Positions 8,563 through 57,642 of a DNA stretch of 64,000 bases are shown here, piece after piece. The translations under genes and the position numbers were made by a program. How positions within the stretch are numbered: the first letter of the stretch is position 1; each line of letters begins with the position of its first letter. Source of the DNA: Mesodorylaimus sp. YZB2_4 (Eukaryota; Nematoda; Enoplea; Dorylaimida; Dorylaimidae); contig JASANH010001153.1 of the NCBI GenBank assembly GCA_030248295.1, positions 62,001-126,000 of the forward strand, read 5' to 3'. The notes beneath the pieces were generated by a model. The model made no database searches. It was given only the letters and a program-made list of their open reading frames with translations, and was not told the origin of the DNA.

Positions 8563-8945
8563 CCATGCTGCTCATGAATAACTGTAACCACAACTTCTAA
8601 TTTTTTCATGAGAAGCTGATATTTTCGATTACGTTCCTATTCCTCACTAATATTTCTGCCGTCCGACTCAAAACTATTTGCAAATCTGATCGTCAGTCAC
8701 CGATGTTTTCTCTGGTCTCAAACAATAATAATGAGGCCGGTAACTGTAATTACGAGCAGAAAAATGAAGCCTCAATGCAGAATATTTATATCATCTCATT
8801 TATTACACTGGAGCGGTCGAAAAAAACTGCAATAGTGTTGTTTGCCAGCAGTTATTGGGAGCACCTGCGGCTCAGAGTTTCGGCTCTGATAGTTCAGATC
8901 GGATGATCCGATCGGAATTTTCAGGATGATGATTTGATCAGCCGT
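8563..8945 (+). repeat. Left arm of inverted repeat bracketing four-TM gene B
   Basis: About 380 bp here matches 11909-12320 in reverse complement with moderate divergence. For example, the tctcaaacaataataa block at about 8718 corresponds to the complement of 12180-12205. The arm ends in a GGATC-word tract (8905-8930) and GATCAGCCGTGA near 8945, similar to the TCACGGCCGGATC terminus seen at 22163 and 10657. It is probably a member of the GGATC-word element family. Confidence 0.55.
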
Positions 8946-14158: not shown

Positions 14159-15964
14159 TCAAATAATCGGTGCCACTTTTGTCATCTTTTCCCGCTCTCT
14201 AAATCGCCAATAGCCATAAACAGCTAAGTAGAACGTAACATGAAAAAAACTGATGACCGACATGCCCCAGTAGAGGCCTACTACATTGCCTAGATCGCAG
14301 AACGTGAGGTAAGAATCCACCTCCTTCGTCTGCTCATACAGGCGATAACTGAGCTCGCTGTAGTACACATGCATCTTGCTGTACATGATATTCTTTTTCT
14401 CCTCCTCAGATTCCAAATCGGAGAAGCTGGGCATACTTGAATACGTCCAGTATCGACAGTGGCATGGACACTTCTGGCTGGTGGAAACTGAGCTACGTAG
14501 ACGACCTTCAATGTCCCTTGCGAGCTGCCTTTTCTGAAAATAGGTTTCACATGTACTGTTCAGTAACTAGGTATGTTTTGCTGATAAACAGGACCAGCCC
14601 CTGATAAGCAGAGCACGGTAAATTCCACCTTGCTTGCCTACAAACGCACTGCTCCAGCGTCCTGTAAAAAACCCCTTGCAATAAGATGAGTAAAAGAACA
14701 AAAAGTCCTGCGTACCAATTCTTTTGTCCTCTCATCATCGTTGTCACTCAGGCCAAGATGCTTCGCAAGATCAGGCGCAGCAATCACATCAGTCAAAGTT
14801 GACTGGACTATTGGACTGCAGACGGCGCTGACGTTGGGGTGATACAAGTAACTGCTAGGTTTACAACCTAAGTAGTCATACACCAAGTCATAGATTAGTC
14901 GTCCAGCACAGTTGATTCCTTGTGCATCGTAATAAAAGTCATTGCTTCCTTTCATGGACAGGTGGCCCGGTTGGGCGCAGTTGGAAATCAGCTTGTGCAT
15001 GACTGGTGTGACCCTGATAAAAGTTTGGGCCCTATCTGGGGCCGTCACCGGCGACTGCGTGGCGCTGTATGGCATAGCATCGACATAAACGCGGAACCCG
15101 TTGTCGGCGACCTCCTCCAACCACGGGAAATCTTCGAGACCCACTTCCGCCTCGATGATCAGACCGCCACTGGGACCCGGCCTGGTCTGCTGGAATGTCC
15201 GACTATGTGGCTGAGCGTTATCGCTGTCAAAATTAAGCTATGACGAGAAAAATATTAACACTGAATGCCTGGACAATATCAGTACTCACCATGAACACGT
15301 AGCATATGCCATCTTCATCCGTTGACTGTATCACGAGTGATGGATCGCAGCAATGGAATTCAACGCCGTTGAACCAACACTTTTTGAACATTTTTCCGCA
15401 GCTCAAAGAAGCCACGCTGGCAAATGTTGAATAGTCTAGCACTTGCGGATTGGCTTGGAGAATTCGCGCAAACTTGAGCAGCAATTTTTGAGAAAAGTGT
15501 CGAGGGCGCATGATCGGGGACATGAACAAGGCGAGCTGCCTGAAAAACTCGTCCCGGGGCAACTGAGTGCTTTCGATGACGGAGTCCGGCACGGTCAGAT
15601 TGTTCATTATAAAAGTCTGATTAAAATAGAGTTGGACGCAGATGGTGACATTGGAAAATGGCAAGGATTCGAGATTTACGAAATCTGCCACTTCGTCTTT
15701 GTACCCTGACTGAAGCCAGTTACGAATTATTTGGCGAATGTAAAATAGCGAGAAACATGATAAAACGGCCAAAGTGAGCAGAAATGTTGCACGAACGACG
15801 GGTATTTGATCACTCAGGGCTTCTTTCCAACCAGCGACACTCACTTTCTCAACGAGATCATCCCAGGCGCGAGTGAGAGGGTCTTTGGTAGGGTCCTCAC
15901 CAGTTTGACGCTCGGTGGTGCTAGTTGCAGGCTGAGGGGCTTCTTTGGCAGACATTGCGGGCAA
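14159..15964 (-). CDS. DEG/ENaC-type sodium channel subunit
   Basis: Exon 1 is 15964-15290 (225 codons), exon 2 15237-14716, exon 3 about 14661-14595 and exon 4 14533-14159, giving about 546 residues. Introns are 52-61 bp where certain. Exon 1 has an intracellular N-terminus, TM1 (about 56-77) and the start of the extracellular domain; a GICYVFM string ends it where family members have GxCYTFN. Exons 2-3 hold spaced cysteines, including CVCRQARWNLPC. Exon 4 has CPCHCRYW, then TM2 GNVVGLYWGMSVISFF with the G-x-S selectivity filter (GMS), then a short basic tail. The His-Gly gating motif before TM1 reads Ala-Gly (SVAGW, 44-45). Exon 2 as given ends in phase 0 but exon 3 needs phase 2. A GT-AG alternative (exon 2 ending 14748, exon 3 starting 14674) restores the frame. 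Confidence 0.88.
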
Positions 15965-16323
15965 ACGCTCCCCTAAAGCAAGCGTGCGGTAGGTGAAGTA
16001 ATAGGTGTATGTAGTAATAGATGATAAAAGGTGTTTTGACCGTGGGGGGGACTGTCCAAGCGCGCATCATTTGACGATAATTGGGTCTATTTGGGACGAG
16101 TGTTTTTCGCTGTTGCTGAGGATACGTTTGTCCGTACCGACAGGGTCATTTAATGTAGGCGATTGAGAATCCCGCGGGTTTGCAGGGCGACCAGTTTCGT
16201 AGGCTCGAAGCGGCATGCGTTTTCAGTAAGCTGATGAGATAAAGTTGATTTGACAAAGGTCAAGCGCTAAGTGTGAAAGTGGAAGGTGGCTTCTGCTAGA
16301 TTCCGATCTTTCCTATTCACGCG

Positions 16324-17956: not shown

Positions 17957-20295
17957 TCAAGCTTTTTTGTTCTCGGCCAGGGTCAGGTTGAAATTGTAAT
18001 GGACGTATGCTTCAGGGCAGCAAGGGTATACCGTCTGCACACGTTCGTACTTGACATCTGGAAAACAGAAACTTTTCAGAATTCCAAAGAGTCTAAGCAC
18101 CTGTAACCTGTCCTGGCAGGCGAAGGAGGGAGGAGGCCGACCGAAGTCAGCGCGACAAAACCCTCGACCGGAGCAGGCAAGTCTTGCGACTATACCTACG
18201 GCTGAAACATCAACCCGAGGGGTTGACTTATCCAAGCCAGGGGAGAGTATCGATTACTCTCTCCCACTCGCCATGGCCTACCAGGTATGAGGGTTACACA
18301 CCGCAGCATACAGAACTTGTGAATAGGGACCGCTTCGGTGCGACTTTGGATGCATGATTTGACAAGCTGTGCTGATTTCAGGGTGAAATTTTGTAGGGAT
18401 TTCAGTGAGGGAATTTTTAGGGGTAGTAGGGGGTTAATATCAAATTAGGCAGGCGCGCTTTATCGACTACCACCGTGTTCATGTACGTTTGACCTTGGCA
18501 ATCCCTAATGACCCGAGCAAAAACATAGGTTGCCCAGAAGCATTCAAAACGACGTGTGCATCACTTCCGCAACTAAATCCAAACCTAATCATAAGAAACC
18601 TCACAACAACGGCCAGTGTACCTGACAGCGTCCACTTATCCGAAGGTTTGGATACGATTAAATGGTCGATTGTTGAATTGCCGTGATCTTGGAGATCCAG
18701 CTCCCCCACGCTGTATACCCACGAGCCCAATTTTATACCGCAGGTCATATTCTTTGGTTGACCAGCAACTTCGGGTGCTGGATAGCAACGAATTTTAAGT
18801 TTTCGTAGTGGGATCCATGTGACCGATCCGTCGTGTGATATAACTACTCGAACTGTGGCGGTCGTGTCGAGCTCCATAGTCTCCCTAAAAATTTTTCGAA
18901 CTCACAAAAAATAGAAAAATCCAAAGAGAAATCAACAAGAACTTACCCCCGATAGAGAAATATATCTGGCAGCCAAATGACCGGATCCTTCGTCGCAGTA
19001 AAGGGCAAGATTTTGATGGAATGGATGTCCCCGTAATCGGATGGATTCCAGCGCAAGCTCACATCAGTCCAAATCTACAAGGCACAGGAGTTTATTGATT
19101 CGATGCCACCACTTCAGCATGCTCTTACCAGTTTTAACCAACTGTGTATATCAAACACGTTTCCTTGGGCCTGAAAATGATTCTGCTGTGAGAGTGCACC
19201 CATTTTCTGTTAGAGCCTTACTTCTAGGATGTCTACTAAGCCGATACCCAACTTGACAGTGACCGCGTCTTCGTGCGCCAGCACTGGGCGAACTCTCGGG
19301 TCGTAATCTCGCAACAGTCTTTTGACTAATTTCGTTTCCACATCGTTAGCAATGCCTGGAGATGAACAAAAGGGTTTGGTTTCATCGTACTATGTGCCCG
19401 CATTACTTTTGGGCTTATCGTTGCAGTATTTTTTCTACAACATGCGCCGACTGATCGGGATATCCCCACCTTTCATCCGGAGCTTAAACAAAATTTCTAT
19501 GTCTCCAAGGTGTCCGACCCCACAATTGACTGATCCGACAGGGTAGATCGTTCCCCCGTTCTGATCCGTCTGGGCGTTGGTCTGTTTTCCCGTGAGCCTT
19601 GGGAGGGACCATAATGGAGAGCGATTAGAAAAGTTTTGGGGGGGGGGGGGGCCCCGCGCAAGTTTTCTGCATCCTTGCTGAAATTTTTTTCCTTGGATAG
19701 GGTCGAGATAGGAATTTAGTCTGAAGGTCCAATCGGTTAATGCTCGGCCGACCTGGGGATGCTTGGCGACCTGGAGATAACGGGCGTACCCCACCATCTC
19801 CCCTCCCACTTCCCCCCCCCCCCCCCCCCCCGCGACAGAATGAAAGTGGAATCCCAATGCCCATGTGCAACAAATGTAGTGAAACGGAGGAGGTCCAAAT
19901 TACTGGCGGCAGCATCAGAAGCTTTCTGAATGTAGTGCCATCGGTCAATAGTTTTTCTTGCATGAGCTGCGTACCTCCCAAAAGCAAAATAGGGTCGTGG
20001 CCCAGCGGGTGAAGGACGTCTGCCTCTCTCGCTGGGTGCGCACTTACAGGGGAGGGTTCGACTACCCCCTCGGTACAAAATGATTATCAAATATGTGTTC
20101 CCTAGCCCTCGAGTGGACAGACTGGATGGATGCCTTGGCTGTGGATAAAGTAAGGCGTGACATGACAAATGAAGATTAAAATGTCCACATGGAAATAGGC
20201 ATACTGATTGTACTCGTGGAGTCCTTGTGGCACTCACCGTATGCACAAAGCAGAATCCCAACGAAAATGGAGACACGAAATGTCAAAGAAGTCAT
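17957..20295 (-). CDS. Secreted acetylcholine-binding-protein-like Cys-loop domain
   Basis: Six exons (20295-20238, 19355-19222, 19185-19129, 19074-18947, 18884-18622, 18057-17957) join in consistent phase to 741 nt, 246 residues. A signal peptide (1-19) leads into a complete nicotinic-type ligand-binding domain: LLRDYDPRVRP, IWTDVSLRWNPSDYG (84-98), WLPDIFLY (117-124), Cys-loop C159-C174, KLGSWVYS (177-184) and loop C YPCCPEAY (224-231). The aromatic box is intact: Y124, W181, Y224, Y231 and W85, with the vicinal C226-C227. The Cys-loop lacks the FPxD that receptors use to contact the pore, and the frame stops 15 codons after loop C, with no TM1 and no donor site in between. Known soluble AChBPs bind ACh as pentamers. 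N-glycosylation sequons lie at N171, N195 and N237. Intron 3 is 36 bp. Confidence 0.85.
18102..18300 (+). mobile_element. MITE with TGTAACC ends, in AChBP-like intron 5
   Basis: About 200 bp starting tgtaacctgtcctggcaggc and ending taccaggtatgagggttaca, so the ends are inverted. Internally it has ccgaccgaagtc, ctgaaacatcaacccgagg and the gagagtatcgattactctctc hairpin. Copies occur at 45735-45911, 51575-51772 and 57643-57833. Confidence 0.65.
19356..20237 (-). other. AChBP-like intron 1 with SINE and G/C homopolymers
   Basis: An 882-bp intron between the signal-peptide exon and the first domain exon. It holds a tRNA-derived SINE (about 19990-20165), a run of 13 G at about 19638-19650 and a run of 16 C at about 19815-19830. 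The long Gly/Pro/Arg-rich open frames across it come from the homopolymers and the SINE and are not exons. Confidence 0.7.
19990..20165 (+). repeat. tRNA-derived SINE, family 1
   Basis: An RNA polymerase III A box (gtggcccagcgggt, about 19995) and B box (gggttcgactacc, about 20053) are followed by a shared body: atgattatcaaatatgtg, agccctcgagtg, ggctgtggataaagta and a gacatgac tail. Similar copies lie at 24975, 46667 and 48805 (+) and 52640 (-). Confidence 0.65.
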
Positions 20296-55681: not shown

Positions 55682-56731
55682 CTAGCCAAGTTGAGCACCA
55701 ACAGGAATTGGACTAACTTGCAAATTCAACCTTGGAAAAACACTACATATTAATTTTCTGAAACGCGTACTCAAGCCAAGTAACAAATACAAATCCAAGA
55801 CATCGATCAGGAGTAAAAATATAAAATAATACCTCGTGCACACTTGTAAACAATCAACAGTCACACCAGATAAGAAGTAAGGCGCCATAGTTAGCCCGCT
55901 CAATATCAAACCAGGGACAGCTGTTGATAGAGCCTGAAAAGTAACCACGAGAACAAGAGTAGTTTCCTCCTGTTTTTGTTTCAGTTGCTTTTTATATTCC
56001 GTTAGATTTCCAGCATTGATGTGAACCTGCTTATTGCGTTTTATAAAGTACTGAATCATCATTCCGTTGCAAACAAACAACGCAGCTAAGCACAATAGAC
56101 GAGTGATTAAACGAAAATATGTAAAAAACGCGCCTACTGGCCCATCCAGGATTTCGGAATTTCTCACGATTTTGTATTGATCCGCACCGTCATTAATCAA
56201 TCTGTATCGTATTGGTGTCTCACCGCCCATCAAATATCCGCCGACATAACACAAACTTATGGCTATGACTTCGTGGCGCCCATGATTTATATTTCGATAG
56301 ATAAATGGCTTTATAAAGGCAAAAAGGCGCTCGGCCGCCATGCTGATACTTAATAGCAAAGACACGTTTGCGAGAATACCACTTCCAGCAGCTGTGATAT
56401 GGCTGGTGAACCACATGAGAGGGTAAGAACGTCTGAACCAGGAGACACCGACGCTGGGGGCTGTTTGACCAGATAAGTACTCGTTACACAGCACAAACAG
56501 GCCAATGGCGATCATTTCTGAGAGACGATTCAGCACGAAGCACACTTGGTAGCGATAATTGTCTTGTATCTTTTTGTAGAAGGCGATCAGGACGAGAGTG
56601 TATGCAAAAATACCAGCAATAAGAAATATTGGGGTCAGCACTTCGTAGGACCCAAAGTAGATATTGTGGTTGGTATCAGGAGAGAAGCAGGTCGAAGAAC
56701 TGTTCAACGCCATCGCCACAGCAACATGCAC
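55682..56731 (-). CDS. Rhodopsin-type GPCR, single exon, orphan
   Basis: An uninterrupted 349-codon frame from ATG at 56731 (a second Met at codon 7 is possible). Seven hydrophobic segments are visible: TM1 about 31-52, TM2 63-83, TM3 108-132, TM4 151-168, TM5 205-228, TM6 259-283 and TM7 299-323. TM3 ends in E134-R135-L136 in place of DRY, followed by FAFIKPFIYR, the usual second-loop pattern. TM7 ends in DLYLLLGLSTRFRK instead of NPxxY, then helix 8 with a Cys. N10-S-S is a glycosylation sequon. I see no Cys at the top of TM3 or in the second extracellular loop for the usual disulfide. It is best placed among divergent invertebrate class A peptide-type receptors; the ligand is unknown. A single exon fits expansion by retroposition. 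Confidence 0.82.
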   Translation of the reverse strand: MHVAVAMALNSSSTCFSPDTNHNIYFGSYEVLTPIFLIAGIFAYTLVLIAFYKKIQDNYRYQVCFVLNRLSEMIAIGLFVLCNEYLSGQTAPSVGVSWFRRSYPLMWFTSHITAAGSGILANVSLLLSISMAAERLFAFIKPFIYRNINHGRHEVIAISLCYVGGYLMGGETPIRYRLINDGADQYKIVRNSEILDGPVGAFFTYFRLITRLLCLAALFVCNGMMIQYFIKRNKQVHINAGNLTEYKKQLKQKQEETTLVLVVTFQALSTAVPGLILSGLTMAPYFLSGVTVDCLQVCTRYYFIFLLLIDVLDLYLLLGLSTRFRKLICSVFPRLNLQVSPIPVGAQLG

Positions 56732-57642
56732 TGATGAGATCTTTGTTATTCACTCTAAATGACGGCGCTGTCAGAAGGCTGCTTCTTGATTTGATGTTGA
56801 AGGTCTGTCCCTTTTGTGATCTTGTGAATGATAGGGAAATTGCTCTCCCGAATGTTTAAAAGGAGATCCTGTTTTTCCAACATTGAAATAATGATAATAC
56901 CCAATTTGATAGTCGGACGCTGACAAACAAGTCAGACTGATGGCTCATCCTCAGGTTAGCTAATGCACTCAGCAAAAGAAAGCCTTGTGTCCACGGGGTA
57001 ATGGAAATGCACGTGAAAGGTTCGACCCCATGCACGGATCTGGGGAGGAGATAAACTATAATGTAGCACCAACAATGATCTAGATCTACTAACGCTACAA
57101 AAAACGAAAGAAACGAAAAAAGGTCAAACGAAAGAGCTCGTCAGCCATGAGTGCTGTAAAAATGCAACACTCGAACCCTTCTAGGAGTTTTAAATAAAAC
57201 AATGGCTTCGAATGCTGCCTGTGCACATAAATCTTCTCTTTGTCTCGCGGGAGTCTGCTTAGCAGTGAGTCTCTATGAGCTAGAGGAAAAAGCTCGCGTT
57301 CCGCACATAAAGAATCATCTTTATGAGACATGGTCATGGTATTTCTCCGCACTGGGTCCCGTCCCGCCATAGTTTCCTCATGGGACTTGTATCTCCTTTT
57401 GACTTTAGCCGGCGATCAGTTTCAAAGATACGCAAGGCTGAGAGGCGACCATCTCTCACTACAAGTTTCCTCGGACATGTCCGCTAGGAGCAACTCCTCC
57501 GAGGACCCTGTGACAGAACGGGTCGCAGCATGACACCGGGCGGGCAAGGGGGAGTGGTCCCGACAATTATTTGAGGACCAGTTTTCTCATTCTCAATTCG
57601 TCGATACCTTGTGGTTCGCCCAGAGCCAGGTGTGCAAGGCCA
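56732..57642. other. Intergenic, upstream of the GPCR
   Basis: Should contain the GPCR promoter. A possible degraded SINE with a B-box-like ggttcgacccc occurs at about 57018. No gene recognised. Confidence 0.4.

Follow-up and report, generated by a model that had tools for sequence, protein, structure and literature searches.

Soluble acetylcholine-binding proteins (AChBPs) are on record for molluscs and for a single annelid, with a spider providing a putative further case (PMC4569296). The account of the molluscan proteins given in the spider paper is that they are reportedly secreted by glia and are believed to buffer acetylcholine; its authors doubted that the spider protein acts as such a buffer, in view of the four cholinesterases that the spider possesses (PMC4569296). 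A snail AChBP circulates in the haemolymph, and toxin binding as well as a calcium-carbonate-binding relative (ACCBP) have been described (PMC3423370). The putative spider AChBP (CsAChBP of Cupiennius salei, 246 amino acids), which is known from transcripts, is a stand-alone ligand-binding domain in an ecdysozoan with an atypical Cys-loop of 16 residues, and the annelid protein from Capitella teleta is a soluble ligand-binding domain outside the molluscs. We liken the protein studied here to these two through the published description of the former (PMC4569296) and through papers citing the latter (PMC4569296, PMC3423370).

The same domain with the same binding residues is found in nicotinic alpha subunits (alpha7, alpha1 and the nematode DEG-3/ACR groups). 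Nicotinic receptors of nematodes have been much studied, since cholinergic drugs against worms act on them. The gene described here, from the dorylaimid nematode Mesodorylaimus sp. YZB2_4, codes for an AChBP-like protein in a phylum from which we found no earlier report: in the open-access literature, covered by titles and abstract openings (subscription papers lie mostly outside this scope), there was no nematode AChBP, and the nematode cholinergic papers found in this way dealt with membrane channels or with secreted cholinesterase. In one nematode paper, the AChBP term occurs only in a reference title (PMC5089771). The gene lies in a stretch of 64,000 nucleotides (contig JASANH010001153.1, positions 62,001 to 126,000), which we call the window and whose own coordinates are used below.

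Gene structure and product

The gene occupies positions 20295-17957 on the minus strand, and its six exons join in frame to a product of 241 amino acids. The five introns are all of the GT-AG type, with phases 1, 0, 0, 2 and 1. A sequence-only reading of this DNA had proposed a stand-alone ligand-binding-domain gene at 17957-20295 with six exons spliced in phase, and both the observation as a whole and the clean splicing were confirmed. Exon 1 (20238-20295) carries the start codon and a segment resembling a signal peptide (MTSLTFRVSIFVGILLCAYG), which was recognized by eye and by hydropathy; the best 11-residue hydropathy window at the N-terminus was 2.81 here and 3.08 and 2.88 in the two sister genes described below, whose first exon is likewise short, hydrophobic and followed by a phase 1 intron. 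Exon 2 (19222-19355) codes for the N-terminal helix and the first strands (IANDVETKLVKRLLRDYDPRVRPV...DILE), exon 3 (19129-19170) for AQGNVFDIHSWLKL, exon 4 (18947-19074) for the part from Trp80 in loop D to Tyr119 in loop A, exon 5 (18622-18884) for loop E, the Cys-loop and Trp176 in loop B, and exon 6 (17957-18057) for loop C, the last strand and the stop codon. These positions follow from the spliced gene model and the alignment, with the loops named A-E as is usual for this domain.

The product contains a single Pfam domain, Neur_chan_LBD, at residues 26-233, a range that includes exon 2. Since the E value over this range is 5e-34, chance is excluded for the identity of the domain, and the proposed nicotinic ligand-binding domain was borne out. 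The product length needs a correction. An acceptor lies in frame 15 bases upstream of exon 3, so that this exon has 42 or 57 nucleotides, as compared to 45 in each sister gene, and the 246 residues counted previously presumably result from beginning exon 3 at that upstream AG. We favour the shorter exon because of the sister genes and of a decayed paralogue on contig C49; the earlier length was probably five residues too high.

Binding site and Cys-loop

The aromatic box is complete (W80 in loop D, Y119 in loop A, W176 in loop B, Y219 and Y226 in loop C), and loop C contains the vicinal cysteines C221-C222; the stretch Y219-P-C-C-P-E-A-Y226 is encoded at 18005-18028 on the minus strand. In the alignment, each of these residues is the one common to all five of alpha7, alpha2, alpha1 and the AChBPs of Aplysia and Lymnaea. 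All the binding residues and the cysteine pair that the sequence-only reading had named are present, with numbers lower by five throughout, including the Cys-loop, now C154-C169.

The Cys-loop (18740-18787, minus strand; CYPAPEVAGQPKNMTC) has 14 inner residues with a mean hydropathy of -0.85 and no FPxD, and its N-M-T motif is a candidate glycosylation site by the general rule for such sites. It thus differs from the nAChR type, which has 13 inner residues with FPxD, and in length also from the molluscan AChBPs with their 12. The FPxD motif is absent from all three soluble genes of this nematode and from the Aplysia and Lymnaea AChBP rows, and is present in the three solved-structure receptor rows, in P0001, in the LGC rows P0003 and P0015 and in the four local receptor rows containing the loop (the pieced row L018, whose Cys-loop is missing, is not counted). 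The loop had also been called hydrophilic as a hallmark of AChBPs. It is hydrophilic, with the same mean value as in Aplysia AChBP (-0.85), yet hydropathy draws no clean line between the groups: the local receptor L031 has -1.1, P0003 -0.69 and Lymnaea AChBP -0.34. The absence of FPxD is the firmer criterion. Judged by its residues, the Cys-loop of the window protein is no longer of the pore-coupling type.

Sister genes in the same genome

In the genome (145 Mb, 1067 contigs), the window protein matched two places: contig C62, weakly, and contig C49, more strongly. The C62 stretch contains two tandem genes on the plus strand, C62A (C62:384353-385325) and C62B (385719-386761), with six exons each and with the intron phases of the window gene, 1, 0, 0, 2 and 1. 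Intron 2 of C62A has a GC donor, and all other introns of the two genes begin with GT. The products of 232 and 228 amino acids have a hydrophobic N-terminal segment and Neur_chan_LBD as their only Pfam match, and they end where the window protein ends, after the last strand; no channel-part match was found behind the two genes with the channel profile in this stretch. Their identity to the window protein is 34% (C62A) and 29% (C62B). The equivalents of W80, W176 and Y219 are kept in both, whereas Y119 is replaced by W in C62A and by F in C62B, Y226 by F in C62B, and the vicinal cysteines by Y-E in C62A and H-E in C62B.

The C49 match is made up of exon-like pieces, one 57% identical and another 47%; the latter is interrupted by an in-frame stop, and later exons did not turn up. 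Judged from these pieces, it is a decayed fourth member of the family. Protein searches of the genome with all three soluble genes revealed no further confirmed soluble candidate.

Database relatives and phylogenetic position

Among solved structures, the window protein matched an AChBP/receptor chimera best (120 bits, 9e-34), followed by AChBPs with at most 99 bits and, close behind, alpha7 with 94 bits. With a profile of the three-protein family, 22 AChBP or chimera chains (147 to 114.1 bits) ranked above the first receptor chain, alpha2 (114.0), although one protein, in repeated copies, accounts for most of these chains and the lowest of them is 0.1 bit ahead of the receptor. Identity to the window protein was 30% for Aplysia AChBP, 22% for Lymnaea AChBP, 30% for alpha7 and 31% for the local receptor rows L021 and L018. 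In the protein database, the window protein gave one hit at E ≤ 1e-5 (223 candidates) and the family profile four at E ≤ 0.001 (2384 candidates), and no named nematode was among their sources. Because hits must share 5-residue words in this search, a low number does not mean that relatives are absent. The best hits to the profile, P0123 (295 amino acids) and P0124 (269 amino acids), have the ligand-binding domain and vicinal cysteines, and Pfam detects no channel domain in them. P0123 scored 167 bits against alpha7 versus 127 bits against AChBP, and P0124 lacks both Cys-loop cysteines; these proteins are possibly further soluble binders, or fragments.

The sequence-only reading had suggested a protein search and a phylogeny to see whether the protein groups with AChBPs or with local receptor subunits. 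In a tree of 21 rows, the three soluble genes grouped together with supports of 96/93 and joined Aplysia AChBP with 96/91 (ultrafast bootstrap/SH-aLRT). For a second alignment of 18 rows, L026_C41, L036_C88, P0010, P0069, P0115 and P0125 (long, partial or redundant) were dropped and Lymnaea AChBP, alpha2 and alpha1 were added; the grouping with both molluscan AChBPs was supported by 91.2/94 (SH-aLRT/ultrafast bootstrap). This support decreased to 77.5/78 when the Cys-loop was masked and to 63.8/65 when the last strand was masked too, and the grouping was still the best tree, as it was in all four runs. In the approximately unbiased (AU) test, two of five alternative placements were rejected on the full alignment and none of the five with the Cys-loop masked; out of 123 domain clusters, the test included five local receptor genes, some of which had been pieced together incompletely from exons.

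These trees bear on a competing evolutionary explanation, that a local nicotinic subunit lost its pore independently and that the likeness to AChBPs is convergence, which arose once the Cys-loop no longer touched the membrane. The stepwise fall in support on masking and the failure to reject any alternative placement with the loop masked speak for it; the constancy of the best tree and the two rejections on the full alignment speak against it, and we give it about an even chance. Because the support drops when the Cys-loop is masked, common descent of the nematode family with the molluscan AChBPs, the nearest known group in the best trees, is favoured, not established. The occurrence of a stand-alone ligand-binding domain in a different lineage, a nematode, holds, whereas the independent loss of the pore, which had been offered as one reading of it, does not stand as established.

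Ligand of the soluble proteins

The lack of vicinal cysteines in the C62 genes makes the window gene the only good candidate for classical acetylcholine binding, and since two of the three members are without them, not all of the family has to be cholinergic. The C62 proteins probably bind other ligands or act as complementary subunits, to judge from their site residues. The window protein, too, could be a soluble ligand-binding domain with a non-cholinergic function, such as a secreted effector, a scavenger of compounds from plants or microbes, or a mineral binder. The C62 genes point in this direction, and molluscan ACCBP, as described in the paper cited, suggests other uses of such proteins (PMC3423370), but the aromatic box and the vicinal cysteines are kept in the window gene, and we regard a non-cholinergic role of its product as unlikely.

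Integrity of the gene and search for a channel part

A decaying nicotinic receptor gene with lost channel exons, or a cut made by the assembly, could also leave a lone domain. The decayed relative on C49 with its in-frame stop and a repeat within intron 1 are in line with decay. Against it stand the six in-frame exons with clean splice sites, the two C62 genes, which agree with it in phases and stop position and are not followed by a channel match, and the invariant residues common to the three genes despite their low identity, and we consider this explanation improbable. A lone truncation or assembly error was likewise rejected as unlikely, since there are three intact genes and one decayed copy and the C62 genes share phases and stop position with the window gene.

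The intron 1 repeat itself (19992-20085, plus strand) is short and dispersed and looks like a tRNA-derived SINE by its promoter-box motifs, as judged by eye. With 40 of 1447 candidates scored, there were at least 40 matches, of which one is the intron copy and the other 39 have 93-94% identity. No tRNA gene in the window is called by ARAGORN. Intron 1 also contains a G run (19638-19651) and a C run (19812-19831), and four more runs of this kind, of at least 10, occur elsewhere in the window.

The stop codon (17957-17959) lies 19 residues past C222, directly after the last strand, and no TM1-TM4 follow the domain as they do in nAChR subunits. Between the vicinal cysteines and the stop codon, a GT occurs just once, in the first two bases of the Val227 codon (TAC-GTC); it is not donor-like, and there are a few GC dinucleotides. 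Five of the 25 open reading frames listed downstream were tested, and none had a Pfam match at E ≤ 1. When the window's reading frames of at least 20 residues were searched with an LGC-type channel profile, no channel part was found behind the gene; the profile's sole other hit with E below 1 is on the plus strand at 8601 (0.65, chance level). The receptor seed L018 had no match in the window, and seed L031 had one at 0.78 on the plus strand, again at chance level; two further seeds, both from L029, proved not to be receptor frames and carry no weight. Over the five frames, the profile and the two receptor seeds, hidden channel exons downstream are thus unlikely, and the stop right after loop C, as read previously from the sequence, was upheld by the lack of both a good donor before it and a channel-domain match behind it. 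That the soluble form is one isoform, with other transcripts joining exon 5 or 6 to remoter channel exons, has in its favour the GT and GC dinucleotides before the stop and the GC donor used in C62A, and is made highly improbable by the negative frames, profile and seeds, by the DEG/ENaC-type gene that comes next at 16066 and by the Cys-loop without FPxD.

No AATAAA was found within 1600 bases past the stop codon of the window gene, where TATAAA occurs at 251, whereas C62A has AATAAA 114 bases past its stop; this is a small point against the proposed reading. The DEG/ENaC (amiloride-sensitive sodium channel) domain frame lies downstream on the same strand at 15233-16066 (minus), perhaps continuing to 14638. 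Elsewhere in the window, an open frame of 355 residues (55682-56749, minus strand) has the look of a seven-helix receptor by eye and no Pfam match at E ≤ 0.001.

Census of Cys-loop receptors in the genome

The Cys-loop receptor family of this nematode is very large, with at least 150 ligand-binding-domain hits, as listed, in 123 clusters. A listed channel-domain match lies within 8 kb on the same strand in 85 of these clusters. Among the other 38, 18 were inspected: channel coding was found behind 15, one (C795) is cut by the contig end, one (C1:916705) is a lone fragment, and one belongs to the soluble pair on C62. A large number of soluble genes within the local family was therefore not supported. 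The census is incomplete for soluble genes, since the window gene and C62A are absent from the 150 listed hits, and the matches of the local domain profile to the window exons are no independent evidence, since the window protein was included in building it.

Several further observations concern the genome as a whole. An LGC-50-like gene on contig C214 is a single open frame of 567 residues; its protein had 425 database matches, of which 120 were listed, and all listed ones with an organism shown were from nematodes. The best named match among those listed was Romanomermis culicivorax (Enoplea, Dorylaimia; 72% over 55% of the query), with four others higher. The nematode cuticle collagen domain had 133 matches in the genome, and the arthropod cuticle domain none, in a search without a positive control. 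These matches mark the genome as that of a nematode, and the single LGC-50-like protein places it probably on the Enoplea side. A mitochondrial-like COX1 on contig C73 (G000:C73:251445-254668, L022 and neighbours) reads through in code 5 (invertebrate); it is preceded on the other strand by a 16S-like sequence, recognized by eye, and accompanied by partial COX1 matches facing the opposite way. To judge from this arrangement, it is either a copy inserted into the nuclear genome or an inverted duplication of mitochondrial DNA within the assembly.

Discussion

The most likely explanation, in our view, is that the window gene codes for a secreted, soluble AChBP-like ligand-binding domain and belongs to a set of three or more intact soluble genes in this nematode. 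The gene models establish, at the level of predicted proteins, a lone ligand-binding domain without the channel part, with an architecture and a stop position common to the three genes and with the full set of site residues in the window gene. As far as gene models can tell, the worm therefore probably secretes several related acetylcholine-binding-like proteins in free form. What the sequence-only reading had put forward, a stand-alone nicotinic-type domain with a full site in this organism, gains strength from the two sister genes, which are truncated in the same way; its residue count is probably too high, its independent pore loss is not established, and its cholinergic sink stays a proposal.

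The closest described counterparts are the molluscan AChBPs of Lymnaea and Aplysia, which also consist of the ligand-binding domain only, have the same site residues with vicinal cysteines in loop C and no FPxD, and are the best solved-structure matches; the Biomphalaria protein is likened to ours by its description. The nematode family differs from them in its occurrence in a nematode, in having sister genes without vicinal cysteines, and in that the pentamer and ligand binding are predicted only. According to the mechanism that we propose, the window protein would be exported and would assemble into a five-membered ring, in which W176, Y119, Y219, Y226 and C221-C222 of one subunit would meet W80 of the next. 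Acetylcholine or other cholinergic ligands may be bound at these interfaces and would thereby be buffered or scavenged in body fluid or secretions. By analogy, the buffering, haemolymph, toxin-binding or mineral-type roles of the known AChBPs could apply to the window protein.

A wider and rather doubtful proposal is that AChBPs are an old family predating the nematode/mollusc split, which was kept in some early-branching nematodes and lost towards C. elegans, and which would here have diversified into a cholinergic branch, the window gene, and branches without vicinal cysteines that bind something else. If descent is shared with the molluscan AChBPs, the age of the family far exceeds what its patchy record implies. 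An exported, soluble protein that binds cholinergic ligands, if true, would be a new element of cholinergic signalling in worms that could scavenge such ligands, and would also offer a soluble nematode template for structures.
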